From assembly GCA_016871575.1 (NCBI GenBank), contig VHCW01000006.1, positions 1-64,000 on the forward strand: a stretch of DNA of 64,000 bases, read 5' to 3'. This DNA is from Verrucomicrobiota bacterium (GTDB taxonomy: Bacteria > Verrucomicrobiota > Verrucomicrobiia > Palsa-1439). Position numbers and translations under genes: made by a program. This document shows, in pieces, positions 13,583 to 19,519 of the stretch (positions are counted from its first letter, which is position 1; every line of letters begins with the position of its first letter). The notes under the pieces were generated by a model, which was given only the letters and a program-made list of their open reading frames with translations, was not told where the DNA came from and made no database searches.

Positions 13583-15214
13583 TTATTTGGTTTTTTGGCG
13601 GCGGGTGGCGTAGTGGGCGCGGACTTCGTCCAGCGTCAGGACGCCGTCGTTGTTCTTGTCCATCTGCTTGAAGTCGGGCGTCGGAAATTCTTCGGGCGTG
13701 AGTTTGCCATCGCCATTCTTGTCGTATTGCTTGAAACGTTCTTCGATGCCGCCGGCGGCTTTGCCGCGCTTGCCACCAGTTTGCGTCCGACCATCCTGCC
13801 GGACCCATTGAGCGGGCTTCATCTGTTTGTCCCACGCGGCGTAGGCGGCTTGGAGTTCCTTCAACTTCGCCGGCTCCTTCGCGGCGAGATCGGTCTTCTC
13901 GCCGATGTCGTCCTTGAGATTGAAAAGCTCCACTTCGTTGCCGCGCTCTTGCACGAGCTTCCAGTCACCAACGCGCGCGGCGTGTTTCTCGCCGGCACGC
14001 CAGAAGAGTTGGTCGTGCGGTCGGCCGGTTTGTTTGCCGAGGAGGAACGGGAGGAGGTTGACGCCGTCGAGCGGTTTGTCAGTCGGCAGCGGCACGCCGG
14101 CGGCGGCGAGCGCCGTGGCGTGGCAGTCGAAGCCCATCACCATCTCGCGATAGACCATGCCCGCCGGCAGTTTGCCTTTCCATTGCGCCACGAACGGCTC
14201 GCGGATGCCGCCCTCGTAGAATTGGGCTTTGTAGCCGCGCAACGGTTCGTTGCTCGCCGTGGTCTGCGGCGTCGGGCCGCCATTGTCGCTGTAGAAGAAG
14301 ATCAACGTGTTCTCTTCCTGACCAAGCGCGCGGACTTTGCCGAGCACGCGGCCCACGGCGTCGTCCATCGCGGCAACCATCCCGGCGTGGATGCGGCGCG
14401 TGCCGGTCAGCTTGGGGAAACGCGCCATGTACGGTTCCGTCGCTTCCATCGGCGAATGGACGGCGTTGAATGCGAGGTAGAGGAAAAACGGTTTGTCCTT
14501 GCTGCGGTCGAGGAACGCGACCGCCTCGCGTGCGAAGGCGTCGGTGAGATATTCTTTCTCGTCGGTGACCGTCTGGCCGTTGCGGATGAGAGGATCATTG
14601 TCAGCCTTGCCCGGCATGTAGGTCCGCGCGCCGCTGAGGAAACCGTAGTGATAATCGAAGCCACGTTCGTGCGGCCGGAGTCCTTCCTTGAACCCGATGT
14701 GCCACTTGCCCATCATGCCGGTGGCGTAGCCGGCGGCCTTGAGGCGTTCGGCGAGCGTCGGCTCGGTGCGCGGCAGGCCGAAGTTCTCCGCCGCGAAACG
14801 TTCCGGCCCGGAGTTGTGCTCGAACCCGTAACGATGCTGGTAGCGCCCGCTCATCAGGCCCGCGCGCGACGGCGAACAGACGCAATGCGTCGCGTAGCCG
14901 TCGGTGAACTGCACGCCGTTCTTGGCGATGCTGTCAATGTGCGGTGTCGGGATGTCCTTGCAACCGGTGACGCCGAGGCCGGCGTAACCGAGGTCGTCAG
15001 CAAGGAAGATAATCACATTGGGTTTGCGCTCAGCGGCGAATGACGACGCGAGCGCACAAAGAGCGCCAAACAGCATCACCGGCAACCACTGTAGCCGCGG
15101 CGCTCCGTCGCCGCGCCTCCTTGATTTCACCGTGCCACACCCGCACGCCGGCGGAGCGGCGTGGCTACAGGATGTGGTCTTGTTTGTCTCAATAAACGAT
15201 GAGTTGTTCTTCAT
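13583..15214 (-). CDS. Sulfatase (formylglycine type) with C-terminal EF-hands
   Basis: A 543-residue exported arylsulfatase-family enzyme. Metal ligands are in FLADDLGYAGLG. The formylglycine motif is C113-S-P-S-R117 followed by AGLMSGRY. GKWHIG, YSDNGG and GGIREPFVAQW complete the S1 pattern. Two EF-hand loops end the protein (DKNGDGKLTPEE, DKNNDGVLTLDE). It would desulfate a glycan or aryl sulfate, needing an FGly-generating enzyme not present here. The leader is odd: residues ~15-42 are encoded by an inserted palindromic repeat, and the hydrophobic core (LFGALCALASSFA) comes after it. An internal start at 15076 would avoid the insert but lacks a Shine-Dalgarno; 15214 has AAAGGGAAC. Confidence 0.85.
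   Translation of the reverse strand: MKNNSSFIETNKTTSCSHAAPPACGCGTVKSRRRGDGAPRLQWLPVMLFGALCALASSFAAERKPNVIIFLADDLGYAGLGVTGCKDIPTPHIDSIAKNGVQFTDGYATHCVCSPSRAGLMSGRYQHRYGFEHNSGPERFAAENFGLPRTEPTLAERLKAAGYATGMMGKWHIGFKEGLRPHERGFDYHYGFLSGARTYMPGKADNDPLIRNGQTVTDEKEYLTDAFAREAVAFLDRSKDKPFFLYLAFNAVHSPMEATEPYMARFPKLTGTRRIHAGMVAAMDDAVGRVLGKVRALGQEENTLIFFYSDNGGPTPQTTASNEPLRGYKAQFYEGGIREPFVAQWKGKLPAGMVYREMVMGFDCHATALAAAGVPLPTDKPLDGVNLLPFLLGKQTGRPHDQLFWRAGEKHAARVGDWKLVQERGNEVELFNLKDDIGEKTDLAAKEPAKLKELQAAYAAWDKQMKPAQWVRQDGRTQTGGKRGKAAGGIEERFKQYDKNGDGKLTPEEFPTPDFKQMDKNNDGVLTLDEVRAHYATRRQKTK
15089..15170. repeat. 82-bp double-hairpin palindromic repeat (type B) inside the sulfatase leader
   Basis: Outer arms CTGTAGCC and GGCTACAG enclose two GC-rich hairpins with CGCTCCG and CGGAGCG cores. 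The layout matches the type A elements at 17442 and 19337 (short outer arms, two opposed hairpins). It looks like a dispersed REP- or MITE-like element, and it is read through in frame. Confidence 0.7.
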
Positions 15215-15241: not shown

Positions 15242-16231
15242 TCAACATGGCGCGGCTTCTCCGTGCGGATACCGGTAGTCGGCGGCGGCGTTTGTGGACA
15301 CGCGCTTGGTCGAGGCGTCTTCCAATCGGTAAACGTAAAGCTGGCCCTTGCCGGTTTGAGTGGAGTGATAGACCACCGCCGACTCGCCATCAATCCAACG
15401 CGGATACGCAAACCAGATCGGCTTGCCTTCTTCGTTGGCAAACGCCTTCGGATTCGTGATCGCGCGCTTCTGCACGTCGAAATCGGCGATGTAAAGCGTT
15501 CGTCCGATCATGGAGTGCTTGAATCCCTTTTGGTATTCGAAGCAAATCTTCTTCTCGCTCGGAGAAATGCTGACGCGGTCCAACAAACCTTTCAGCCCTA
15601 GTTCGCACTCGACCCGTTCAAACTTCGGCTCGCCGCCCGGATTCGGCGTCATCAGGAAGTAACCGCGACCGAGTTTCGGGGGCGCGGACGCGACAAACAA
15701 CCTGCCATCGCTGACGGCCGAGTGGACCCACGAGCTGTACCGCTTATCGGTGAGCGCCACTTCCTCGCCCGGTTTGCCGCCCACCTTGCTCGCCATGATG
15801 CAGTAACCGCCGGCCGCCGAAGTTTTGCGGTTCCACAACGGCGTGTTCTTTCCGTCCCGCGTCCATGTGGGGTTGAAATCGGTGTGCGTGCCGTCGCTCA
15901 AGAAGTGAAACCCGGTGCCGTCCACGTTGACGATGAAGGTCGCGGTTATCCAGTTGGCCGTGACCCGGTCATTCTTGAGCCGGCGGAAACAGACGAACAT
16001 ATCGCCGGTCTTCGACCACGACGGCTTGAAGTCCCAGTGACCGGTTGTGATCGGCTTTCCTTCCGGCTGGCCGGGTACGTTGACATGAATCTCGCCGTTG
16101 CAGTAATAGGAAATCCGCGACCGGCGCGGAGCCGCCGCCTCGCCGGCGTTGGCGATGAGCGGCAGACCGGCGAAAACCGCAGTCCTTTTCAGAAACTCGC
16201 GCCGAGTGAGTTGTTCGTTGCATGTGTTCAT
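15242..16231 (-). CDS. Tat-exported TolB/PD40-like beta-propeller protein
   Basis: A 329-residue protein with a Tat leader (TRREFLKRTAVFAGLPLIANA). WD40-like PD40/TolB repeats follow: GHWDFKPSWSKTGDMFVC, HTDFNPTWTRDGK, and WIDGESAVVYHS near the C-terminus. In related proteins this fold resembles oligogalacturonide lyase and TolB. Oligogalacturonide lyase (PL22) is a possible reading, because it too is a propeller that begins by reporting sugar-binding His residues, but I do not see enough to claim it. Its start overlaps the stop of the VCBS protein as ATGA; the sulfatase starts 27 bp downstream. Confidence 0.6.
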   Translation of the reverse strand: MNTCNEQLTRREFLKRTAVFAGLPLIANAGEAAAPRRSRISYYCNGEIHVNVPGQPEGKPITTGHWDFKPSWSKTGDMFVCFRRLKNDRVTANWITATFIVNVDGTGFHFLSDGTHTDFNPTWTRDGKNTPLWNRKTSAAGGYCIMASKVGGKPGEEVALTDKRYSSWVHSAVSDGRLFVASAPPKLGRGYFLMTPNPGGEPKFERVECELGLKGLLDRVSISPSEKKICFEYQKGFKHSMIGRTLYIADFDVQKRAITNPKAFANEEGKPIWFAYPRWIDGESAVVYHSTQTGKGQLYVYRLEDASTKRVSTNAAADYRYPHGEAAPC

Positions 16232-19200
16232 GGTTTCACCTGTGTTGTCTGTGACATTCTGAGGTCGAGATCGAGGAACTGGTCGGCCTTCACGCCGGCG
16301 AACGAGACGGTCTTGCCGCTGGGGAGCGTGACCTTGACGTCCGCTTTGGTTTGTTTGCCGAGACCGAAGTGGGCTTCGAGCGCGCCGCCGCTCTTGTAGC
16401 TGTGGTTAGCGTGAATCCAGCGATACTGTTTCATGCCGGCAGCGGTGAGTTCGACGCGCGCCCCGATCAGTTCGGCATCCTTCACGCCGCTGAAACGTAA
16501 GCGCAGCCAGTGGTTCTCCTTCGCGCCGTGCAGGCCGGTGTTCCAATAGACCTTGCTCTCGTAACGCGCCATGCTCAGCGCGGGGCCGGAGTTGTCGGGG
16601 TCGGAGGCGAAGACGAGATCGAGCAGGCCGTCGTTGTTGAGGTCGGCGACTTCACCGCAGATGCCGGAGCCGTCCAGACCGCTGAAGGTCGTCGGCTTCA
16701 ACTCGAACGTCCCGTCGCCGCGGTTCATGAACAGCGCGACGCGGGCTTCGGGGTTCATCGTCTCGCTACGGTCCAAGACGACAAAGTCCTGCCAGCCATC
16801 GTTGTTAAAGTCACCGAAGATCGCATCAGCGAAGTAAGGACGACGGTCGCCAGCTTCCATCGGCGCGCCGGGACGAGTTCTCGGCATCGGGGCGTCGAAG
16901 AACTTGCACCAGTCGCGATAGACCCAGTTCAACGCCGACAGACCGGCGGCCTCGGTCGCCTCCTCGAACTTAAAGCCGCCCTTGTTCTGCCAGAACCGGC
17001 CGCTGACGTATTCGGTACGCGGCGCCCAGCCCGGACTGGCCGGGCCGACGGCGAGCACGTCAAGCAGGCCGTCGTTGTCAACGTCGGCCAGCGAGATGTA
17101 CGGCAGGCCGGGCGCTTTGCCAACTGGTGTCGTGGTTTTGGTTGCGCGGTCGAGTTTCAGGTGTGCTTCACAGGCGAGACCGTTGCCGGTGATCTTCTCG
17201 AACTGAAGTTTACCGGTCTCTTTCAAGAGGTTCTTCCAACAGAACACGCCTTGCCGGTATTCGATGGGCGAATACGGCAGCAACAGGTCGCGCACGTCAA
17301 TGTGGTAGCTCTGGATCAAGTCGAGATCGCCATCATTGTCGAGGTCGCGCAGGTTGATGTCGGGACCGGCCTTGTCCTTCGCGCTGTCGTGGTAAAAGCC
17401 GCCGAAGTCCGGGACAAGTGAAGTGCCGCCGATGTCTTCAAAGTACCCATCACGCTCCGCGTGATGTTTGCCCGGTTTTTCATCACGCGGAGCGTGATGA
17501 CTACTATGAAACACAAACAGCCGGCTGTGCGGGAAGCCTCCCATGGCGTCGCCGATGTTATCGCAACCGATGGCGATGTCGAGATGGCCATCCTTGTTCA
17601 CGTCGCCGATGGACGGCTGGCGGTTGTAGGCTTGCTCGTTCTGGATGCCCATCTTCGCCGACACGTCGCGGAAGACATCCCAAGCGCCGTCGCTGAGGTA
17701 AAGACCGTTGCCGAGTTTCTGGTCGTTCGGATTGGACCGGCCGCCCGACATCTGCGCGTGGCGGGTGACGAACAGGTCGAGGAAACCGTCGCCATCGAAG
17801 TCGGCAAGGTTCGGTATCTGGCCGCGCCCAAAACTGTCCAGCGTCACCTTCGAGTCGAGCAGCTTGATCGTGTGCGGGTGAAACTGGAAGCCGCCGTCGT
17901 TGATGAACACGCGCAACTTTTCGCCGGCACCCCAGCCTCTTCCCGTGCCGCGCACCGGGGAATACGTCGCCACGATGTCGAGCAGGCCATCCTTGTTCAA
18001 GTCCACGATGGCTACGCCATTCATCCCTTCCTGAATGCTGGTGAAGCCGGGCACGACGATGCTCTCGAACATTTGTCCGCGTCCCGCCGCGTCGCGCGAC
18101 GCATCGCTGTCGGGCATCTTCTTCAACGGCGGCTCGCCCGGTCGTTGCTCGGCGATTTCCTCCTTGTGTTCTTTTGGCTTGATGGTGCTGAGCTGCGCCG
18201 CAACTGATCGTTGCCGTTTCGGTGCGGCGGGTCTTGCCGAACCGACGGCACTCTCGGGAGCTTGCTCGATGTAAATGCGATTGCCATCGGGATCGGTCAC
18301 CAGCAACCGCTTGTCGCCCTCGATTTTCGCGCCACGTTTCACCAGTCCGGCACGCACGGCCGCCAGATCAGCAACGCGCAACGTCACGCTTCGCAATCCC
18401 GGCGCATCCGGCCCCGCGTCGGCTTCGCGCGGACGTTGTCCCTGCGGCGCGGAAAACTTCACGCGTCCTGCGCCGGTGGCGAACAGATACATCTTCATGC
18501 TGAACGGCGGCGGCAGATTCCACGGATCGAACTCCTCCAAGCCGAGCACCGCGCCGTAAAATTTCCGCGCCGTCGCGTCGTCGCTGACGGCCATGCCCCA
18601 CGTGAACGTCTCACCCGACGCGCTACGCGGCACGCCCATGATCTCAACGACGTTGCCGTCGGGATCGCGCGTCATGCTGACGTTGCCGCCCTTCATCGGC
18701 GCCGGATAACCCGCCTTCACGAGCCGCTCGCTGATGGCGGCCGGGTTGTTGAACCAAAGCGAGAACCACCGGAAGCCGTTCTGCGAGAGCATTTGTTTCA
18801 TCGGGTTACCCGTTTGCGGCGCAGGTTTTTCGCCCGGAACCTTGCGTAGCCGCAGATAGCTGTCCGCCCACTCAAACAGTGTGCCCGGCTCGACCTCGCG
18901 CATCCCGATGCCGTCGCGATAAAACTTCGCGCACGCCTCGACATCGCGCACGCAAAGCTCGAACACCGCGTCCACCGCCGTGAGTTCGCCGGCGGCCAGC
19001 GGTGCCGCTGGTTGTTCCGGGGCGGCAGGTCGCGTCGTCCGGCGTGCAGCGAAATACGCCTGCACTTCCTCGATGGTCAGAGAACCGTCTTTGTTTTTGT
19101 CCGCCGCGTCGAAGAACGGCAGCGAACCTCCCTCCTCCCGGCTGACTTTGCCATCGCCGTTGCGGTCGAGTTGCTTGAAGCGGTCAGCGAGGCCGCTGCC

Positions 19201-19296
19201 GGCGGGACGGGATGTTTGTTGGGCTGTGAGGGAGATGGCCAAGCCGACCATGGCCACCAGCAGAACTTGGCTGAAACGGAGATTATAGTTGTGCAT
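16228..19296 (-). CDS. EF-hand / double VOC / VCBS-repeat / UnbV fusion protein
   Basis: A 1022-residue exported fusion. Signal peptide (residues 1-25); two EF-hands (about 42-80; DRNGDGKVSREE, DKNKDGSLTIEE); two vicinal-oxygen-chelate domains (about 105-345, with DPDGNVVEIMG and DPDGNRIYIEQ closing each); a VCBS/FG-GAP propeller (about 420-900) with many Ca-binding D-x-N-x-D-G loops such as DLNKDGLLDIV and DFDGDGFLDLF; and a C-terminal ASPIC/UnbV domain (about 920-1010). VOC domains are normally small cytoplasmic enzymes, so this combination is unusual. About 20 residues near 598-619 derive from an inserted palindromic repeat. It leads the leftward operon behind an ECF-type promoter and may be leaderless. 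Confidence 0.8.
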   Translation of the reverse strand: MHNYNLRFSQVLLVAMVGLAISLTAQQTSRPAGSGLADRFKQLDRNGDGKVSREEGGSLPFFDAADKNKDGSLTIEEVQAYFAARRTTRPAAPEQPAAPLAAGELTAVDAVFELCVRDVEACAKFYRDGIGMREVEPGTLFEWADSYLRLRKVPGEKPAPQTGNPMKQMLSQNGFRWFSLWFNNPAAISERLVKAGYPAPMKGGNVSMTRDPDGNVVEIMGVPRSASGETFTWGMAVSDDATARKFYGAVLGLEEFDPWNLPPPFSMKMYLFATGAGRVKFSAPQGQRPREADAGPDAPGLRSVTLRVADLAAVRAGLVKRGAKIEGDKRLLVTDPDGNRIYIEQAPESAVGSARPAAPKRQRSVAAQLSTIKPKEHKEEIAEQRPGEPPLKKMPDSDASRDAAGRGQMFESIVVPGFTSIQEGMNGVAIVDLNKDGLLDIVATYSPVRGTGRGWGAGEKLRVFINDGGFQFHPHTIKLLDSKVTLDSFGRGQIPNLADFDGDGFLDLFVTRHAQMSGGRSNPNDQKLGNGLYLSDGAWDVFRDVSAKMGIQNEQAYNRQPSIGDVNKDGHLDIAIGCDNIGDAMGGFPHSRLFVFHSSHHAPRDEKPGKHHAERDGYFEDIGGTSLVPDFGGFYHDSAKDKAGPDINLRDLDNDGDLDLIQSYHIDVRDLLLPYSPIEYRQGVFCWKNLLKETGKLQFEKITGNGLACEAHLKLDRATKTTTPVGKAPGLPYISLADVDNDGLLDVLAVGPASPGWAPRTEYVSGRFWQNKGGFKFEEATEAAGLSALNWVYRDWCKFFDAPMPRTRPGAPMEAGDRRPYFADAIFGDFNNDGWQDFVVLDRSETMNPEARVALFMNRGDGTFELKPTTFSGLDGSGICGEVADLNNDGLLDLVFASDPDNSGPALSMARYESKVYWNTGLHGAKENHWLRLRFSGVKDAELIGARVELTAAGMKQYRWIHANHSYKSGGALEAHFGLGKQTKADVKVTLPSGKTVSFAGVKADQFLDLDLRMSQTTQVKP
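17442..17505. repeat. 64-bp double-hairpin palindromic repeat (type A), copy 1, inside the VCBS gene
   Basis: Two opposed hairpins, CATCACGC-TCC-GCGTGATG (17448-17466) and CATCACGC-GGA-GCGTGATG (17481-17499), lie between AGTA and TACT ends. It is translated in frame as part of the VCBS protein (around SSHHAPRDEKPGKHHAERDG). Copy 2 is at 19337-19401. Confidence 0.85.
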
Positions 19297-19331: not shown

Positions 19332-19336
19332 AGGAA

Positions 19337-19401
19337 AGTACTCATCACGCTCCGCGTGATGATTGGGGGTGGCGATCCTCACGCGGAGCGTGAGGGGTAC
19401 T
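19337..19401. repeat. 65-bp double-hairpin palindromic repeat (type A), copy 2, intergenic
   Basis: CATCACGC-TCC-GCGTGATG (19343-19361) and CCTCACGC-GGA-GCGTGAGG (19377-19395) lie between AGTA and TACT ends, as in copy 1. It sits 5 bp upstream of the ECF promoter of the leftward operon. The right hairpin keeps pairing through a compensated change (AT to CT, AT to AG), which suggests selection on the fold. Confidence 0.85.
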
Positions 19402-19519
19402 ATTGCTTCAGCGTCGCTTTATAAATCCATGCCGAGCAATTGTCGGTAAAAGTGTCCTGTTAATGTGTCCTTTACAAACGGACGGATTTATAGCATTCTA
19501 TCCTCGTGAGGAGGACACC

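Follow-up and report, generated by a model that had tools for sequence, protein, structure and literature searches.

REPINs are usually treated as intergenic passengers. Translated intragenic REPs of the GTAG type have been known since 2013, when GTAG REP dimers lying within genes and read as in-frame inserts of 20-30 amino acids were described (Rocco/Di Nocera et al., 2013; PMC3733652). In that work, the verrucomicrobium named O. terrae was the richest in intragenic GTAG REPs, and loops and linkers were suggested by the authors to be tolerant sites; the same paper places RPE-4/6 in the CGTC class. As for the head of the element, GTAC weakens or retargets cleavage in the enzymes tested (PMC8266576). 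In the open-access literature, no report of repeated occupancy of the same loop, or of loop replacement, was found.

Here, a REP doublet within a VCBS/FG-GAP gene of a Verrucomicrobiota bacterium was considered, together with its relatives in the same and other genomes. The window, namely the 64,000 nucleotides of contig VHCW01000006.1 (assembly GCA_016871575.1) that were analyzed, contains two such doublets (Table 1). The boundaries of the first were set by the conserved edges of 70 REPs in the genome, thereby refining to 17440-17507 the palindrome that a preliminary description had placed at 17442-17505 in the VCBS gene. Each 27-nt unit is a small hairpin, the stem of which (CATCACGC/GCGTGATG) comprises a perfect 8 bp with no bulge. 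Each unit is also the reverse complement of its partner, and on both strands the complete element can form a single long hairpin, such that the earlier term, double hairpin, captured the two hairpins and missed the larger structure. The second, intergenic doublet, earlier given as 19337-19401, was likewise recovered; it lies 39 nt upstream of the VCBS start codon, between the VCBS gene and a divergent gene, and its right arm differs slightly from that of the first copy (CCTCACGC...GCGTGAGG). When compared to shuffled sequences, the first doublet folded with z values of -10.9 and -12.2 on the two strands, and z for the two window copies together lies at about -9 to -12, well below the shuffles. 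A 19-nt pattern allowing up to three mismatches matched the window six times, as compared to an expected 0.95. Together with the genome counts given below, these folding values and pattern counts exclude chance as the origin of the pair.

The minus-strand frame of the host gene crosses the doublet without a stop codon, with conserved sequence on both flanks. Most of residues 596-617 of the product (HSSHHAPRDEKPGKHHAERDGY; 22 residues) are encoded by the doublet, in agreement with the earlier reading of about 20 residues in frame near position 600; what that reading took for a simple insertion is, instead, a site at which much of the host loop is missing. The N-terminus is signal-peptide-like as judged by eye, and export or secretion of the protein, as also claimed in the preliminary description, is accordingly a prediction from a by-eye reading. 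AlphaFold2 modeling of seven sequences placed the VCBS doublet-encoded block between two predicted strands, as a low-confidence loop, at modest overall confidence (mean pLDDT 62.5), with residues 176-191 of the modeled fragment having pLDDT under 50.

Table 1. Coordinates and properties of the REP doublets, their host genes and related REP-bearing genes.
Feature	Position	Strand	Remarks
REP doublet (REPIN) in VCBS/FG-GAP gene	17440..17507	.	68 nt = 27 + 14 + 27
Left REP	17440..17466	+	AAAGTACCCATCACGCTCCGCGTGATG; head GTAC, 8-bp stem, TCC loop
Spacer separating the two REPs	17467..17480	.	14 nt; minus strand ~EKPGK
Right REP, inverted orientation	17481..17507	-	CATCACGCGGAGCGTGATGACTACTAT; minus-strand head GTAG
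Second REPIN, intergenic	19335..19403	.	27 + 15 + 27 nt; A-type and C-type arms mixed
1022-aa protein hosting the REPIN	16228..19296	-	EF-hand, glyoxalase-like, FG-GAP repeats, C-terminal ASPIC/UnbV
Adjacent sulfatase	13583..15214	-	REP-free; L152 orthologue with REPIN before Asp-Gly; L150 and L224 orthologues with apparent decayed remnants
REP-bearing sulfatases	C39 (two), C84, C90		C84 and C90 with single REP
REP-bearing GH106 rhamnosidases	C90, C135, C34		

A search of the 5.19-Mb genome with the 15-nt core TCACGCTCCGCGTGA returned 60 exact copies and 70 with one mismatch, the corresponding values for a reversed control pattern being zero and one. After two chance matches (L072 and L089) were dropped, the cores grouped into about 40 sites, 31 of which are inverted doublets. 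Alignment of 70 REPs yielded the consensus A[AT]AGTA[CG]TC[AC]TCACGCTCCGCGTGA[GT]G (conserved unit AWAGTASTCMTCACGCTCCGCGTGAKG), the edges of which are sharp, with no shared target sequence being seen outside the 27-nt unit among the approximately 70 aligned REPs. A GTA[C/G] head stands at a fixed distance in 62 of 70 REPs, being GTAC in 42 and GTAG in 21 of the 70, which agrees with GTAG-type REPs as palindromes of 20-50 nt headed by a conserved GTAG-like tetranucleotide. In all 62 headed copies, the outermost stem positions are paired (A-T, 30; C-G, 28; G-C, 4), as compared to a mean of 29.3 and a maximum of 41 in shuffle controls, showing that compensatory changes hold the stem. By contrast with the arms, where information content is 1.3-2 bits per position, the spacer holds about 0.1-0.2 bit. 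Rfam contained no match for the REP element.

Transposases in other genomes bear on the class of the element. G044, of another family in the same class, encodes a 235-aa RAYT-like protein with this REPIN on both sides. The protein matched NCBIfam NF047646 (REP_Tyr_transpos) with E=1e-16 and 61 bits, below the cut-off of 80, and Pfam Y1_Tnp with 22.4 bits in one run and 23.7 bits in another, the cut-off being 23; a PDB sequence search with it returned no match. An HUH motif, PNHVHLL, as well as YIAENP, can be read by eye. The gene (L143:2059-2766) follows one REPIN directly, and the other REPIN encodes the C-terminal residues of the protein, NPHSSPHAPREVNTTTTKSSRGA. The nearest relatives of the protein within the class, at 64% and 59% identity, have CATCACTC-TCC-GAGTGATG and CATCACAC-TCC-GTGTGATG on their flanks, these being the next closest REPs. 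Since transposase and flanking repeat thus change together among related RAYTs, the element is assigned to the GTAG-type REP/REPIN kind, of the REP/RAYT class.

In the genome of the window, no cognate RAYT was found in the assembly, a 95% complete draft. It contains nine Y1_Tnp genes, and those with clear flanking palindromes carry other palindromes, including the closest RAYT, L054 (about 36-39%). Indeed, L051-L054 are RAYT-like genes each having its own palindrome family (e.g., GGCCGACTC, GTGGCCGCCG, GGACAACCG), so that several REP systems coexist here. The transposase of this genome may have been lost or may be hidden in an assembly gap. Nearly all REP copies sampled in other genomes are headed by GTAG, and the shift to a GTAC-type head could accompany a changed or lost transposase.

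The core was absent from the same-genus and same-family relatives sampled and present in a different family of the class (f4), as well as in two MAGs labelled Lentisphaerae, a scattered presence that suggests transfer or patchy loss. Tandem REP arrays occur in genome G387. In the L152 genome, 167 exact REP cores were counted (L243-L246), many in BIME-like tandem arrays of alternating orientation; these arrays share one spacer, whereas spacers in the window's genome vary. A 10.5-Mb MAG labelled Pirellulaceae has its five exact cores all on a single contig, JAHDXO010000004.1, which also carries three VCBS copies (L224, L225 and L150) and which may be mis-binned or transferred.

Some 31 of the 40 sites in the window's genome are intergenic and nine lie inside genes, all in frame and with plausible coding on both sides, namely the VCBS gene, a gene for a right-handed beta-helix protein, four sulfatase genes and three GH106 rhamnosidase genes. 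L084 was left out of this count because of the poor upstream score of its spanning frame; in other genomes, many frames that cross REPs were disregarded as antisense or spurious. Even at a coding share as low as 68%, the probability of nine or fewer of 37 sites (the number of sites later became about 40) falling in genes is 6e-8, a deficit indicating that in-gene copies are mostly removed. The preliminary description had proposed that this lineage has a protein-invading repeat comparable to those of Rickettsia. At least nine genes do carry a mobile palindrome in frame, and the pair recurs throughout the genome; the palindrome is, however, a RAYT-linked REPIN of the GTAG type, most of its sites lie between genes, and it is not specific to the lineage, the core occurring in abundance elsewhere and certain VCBS homologues having the doublet or one REP at this site. 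Descent from a Rickettsia-type element was accordingly set aside, since both the GTAG-like heads and the link to a RAYT fit REPs.

Six VCBS relatives from named genomes, together with two further copies (L224 and L225) in the L150 genome, were compared at the site of the doublet. L154 (83% identity) shares the doublet, its spacer being a related one, and L224 and L225 carry a full doublet. One REP is present in L150 and L152, while L151 and L153 have a plain loop of 11-12 residues with no REP. A 33-bp deletion between the repeated arms, which are spaced by 33 nt, would leave a single REP in frame. In isolate UWPOB_VERRUCO3 (L149:4852-4986), a different inverted repeat, AAGGATAAGGGATGAA ... TTCATCCCTCATCCTT, occupies the same loop in frame. 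Wherever homologues show the same residues as the window's protein, the repeat is present in their genome or, at the least, on their contig, so that the refuting observation named in the preliminary description did not arise. The alignment it called for showed that L151 and L153 lack these residues, and that much of the host loop is absent where the repeat is present. Such comparisons also address whether the open frame across the repeat is accidental, the gene being broken or mis-assembled in what is a draft genome of 257 contigs. Given that L154, L224 and L225, from independent genomes, carry this doublet at the identical position between conserved flanks, this explanation is extremely improbable.

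Occupancy of one loop was also seen in the enzymes. Sulfatase copies all end directly before a conserved Asp-Gly (four in the window's genome and one each in G389, G013 and L152), and the L150 and L224 sulfatases retain apparent eroded REP remnants in the pre-Asp-Gly loop. All three GH106 copies lie directly before Gly-Pro-Trp, in the context (Ser/Asp/Thr)-Gly-Pro-Trp. The right REP of the sulfatase at L152:4947-5069 has a compensated stem, TCTCGC/GCGAGA, a variant also present in the window's genome, in the GH106 gene L088. In a tree of 65 sulfatases, in which L152, L150 and L224 carried no REP-bearing label, the six REP-bearing members require three state changes, of which well supported branches force two or more. 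A single ancient insertion common to all sulfatases was rejected on the basis of these changes and of arms that are near-perfect despite deep divergence. The 5.2-Mb genome holds 148 sulfatase matches, suggesting a sulfated-polysaccharide specialist, and this abundance is part of the reason for the repeated occupancy of sulfatases. The Asp-Gly and Gly-Pro-Trp endpoints could be taken to mean that a target preference of the REP system explains the recurrence in one loop. This is quite unlikely, given that the approximately 70 REPs share no sequence beyond the unit itself, that intergenic copies lack such context and that what lies to the right is, in any case, a conserved protein motif.

The length of the loop between fixed anchors speaks to how the repeat came to be there. 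In 54 REP-free sulfatases, 17-26 residues (mean 19.6) separate two anchors; in REP-bearing sulfatases, once REPs and spacer are subtracted, 10.7-13 host residues remain between the same anchors. In GH106 proteins with a REPIN, inspection showed the host linker to be essentially gone, as compared to about 21 residues at this position in REP-free paralogues. In the VCBS family, the loop of L150, with its single REP, is the same length as the loops of REP-free L151 and L153. As such, the REP-encoded peptide appears to substitute for the host loop instead of merely extending it, with either the loop having been exchanged at integration or redundant host residues having been trimmed later. Replacement proper, in which REP/REPIN DNA swaps out an existing loop-coding stretch, for instance when a single-stranded intermediate anneals at a gapped fork or when another copy acts as donor in gene conversion, would account for these lengths, as well as for two GH106 paralogues that, while only 56% identical, share the entire REPIN, including the exact 13-nt spacer. 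At the same time, insertion followed by trimming would look alike, full doublets still give a longer-than-normal loop, and no empty (pre-insertion) site close enough to reveal the event was found; we consider replacement possible, albeit not the favored reading.

Clean insertion of the doublet as a unit was rejected, as 54 nt plus the spacer is never a multiple of three in coding doublets (spacers of 13, 16 and 14 nt); the site must therefore have gained or lost target nucleotides, or the boundaries must be separate ones. Spacers of non-coding doublets are mostly 14, 21 or 10 nt, with lengths of 13 and 16 nt occurring in genes only, and lengths of 1 mod 3 are in excess among coding doublets (Fisher P 0.026, with one duplicate dropped). 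A host-derived spacer between two independently inserted 27-nt REPs was attractive, since 27 nt equals nine codons. That reading was weakened by spacers that, when oriented, look alike by eye and by residual loop lengths that fit poorly.

The REP arms within genes show little decay. Synonymous positions were compared between the window's VCBS gene and L154, between a sulfatase of the same genome and its G013 orthologue, between the two GH106 paralogues and among VCBS paralogues (genes 55-83% identical). REP codons showed no or one synonymous change, as compared to changes in 30-50% of codons for the same residues outside the REPs; residue-matched P values for this deficit range from 0.03 to 4e-5 per comparison, the comparisons overlapping and so not being independent. 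Repeated renewal or gene conversion most simply accounts for the undecayed arms, with selection on the hairpin being possible. Were the block kept for a function, be it a hairpin acting in DNA or mRNA or a peptide useful to the protein, the same deficit would be expected, and the left arm, which offers two open frames, is indeed read as HHAPRD in every convincing coding case and never as ITLRVM. Still, renewal from a homogeneous REP population predicts the same conservation, the same peptide appears in unrelated proteins with orthologues and most paralogues lacking it, and the remnants in the L150 and L224 sulfatases are visibly decayed. A functional block is, on balance, unlikely.

The doublet at 17440-17507 is very probably a copy of a RAYT-mobilised GTAG-type REPIN that survives in frame in a permissive loop. 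A REPIN is a non-autonomous mobile repeat that a REP-associated tyrosine transposase (RAYT) moves in single-stranded form. Copies would land widely, with survivors being mostly intergenic; those surviving in genes would be copies for which both reading frames are open, the downstream frame is preserved and the site is a permissive surface loop. The present copy would occupy an FG-GAP beta-hairpin loop and be read through as about 22 hydrophilic residues of no evident function. That a RAYT moved this copy, that peptide 596-617 is made and that the location of REPs in genes is determined by selection and not by a choice of target are presumed. Four observations count against this explanation, namely the failure to find a cognate RAYT in the genome's own assembly, heads that are mostly GTAC, REP arms lacking the decay expected of neutral inserts, and a host loop that is missing rather than split by the insert. 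A broader proposal, in which REP/REPIN modules take the place of particular surface loops in exported enzymes and are continually renewed there, with mobile DNA swapping S/T-HHAPRD-x-LTRSVRxTL for the native linker of sulfatases, GH106 and FG-GAP proteins, is tentative and, in our estimation, somewhat doubtful.

The gene families considered here document a translated repeat as a fresh copy, as a single REP and as an eroded remnant, all within loops of known normal length. In this manner, one can ask whether mobile palindromes add to or exchange loops, and whether the peptides they encode are neutral. For annotation, caution is called for, as the HHAPRD and LTRSV blocks that sulfatases and rhamnosidases contain represent mobile DNA and not protein motifs.

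Among described systems, the REPs of PMC3733652 resemble the window element in being short GTAG-headed stem-loops that form head-outside dimers and mix subtypes in one dimer. That report stresses DNA replication and repair genes, with different sites in each gene, whereas in the window's genome exported hydrolases and an FG-GAP protein are involved, several paralogues carry REPs at one and the same loop, apparently in place of the host's own. The REPINs of Bertels and Rainey (2011; PMC3116915) likewise comprise two inverted REPs with a variable spacer, form one hairpin and are RAYT-linked; Pseudomonas REPINs are, however, described as extragenic, while about one quarter of the sites here lie in coding frames and the cognate RAYT was not found in the genome. 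Rickettsia palindromic elements, as cited in PMC3733652, are alike by behavior, with an in-frame palindrome appearing as a surface peptide in unrelated proteins; a RAYT link is not part of the description given there, whereas the window element is so linked via G044. With E. coli BIMEs and TnpA-REP (PMC8266576), the element shares a REP plus inverted REP, a variable linker, a GTAG guide, tandem arrays (in genome G387) and, in G044, what looks like an HUH transposase, yet differs in its mostly GTAC head and perfect 8-bp stem without a bulge. What looks new is the recurrence in the same loop (in sulfatases, in GH106 and in the FG-GAP hairpin of orthologues), the substitution of the loop and the near-absence of synonymous change in the arms.
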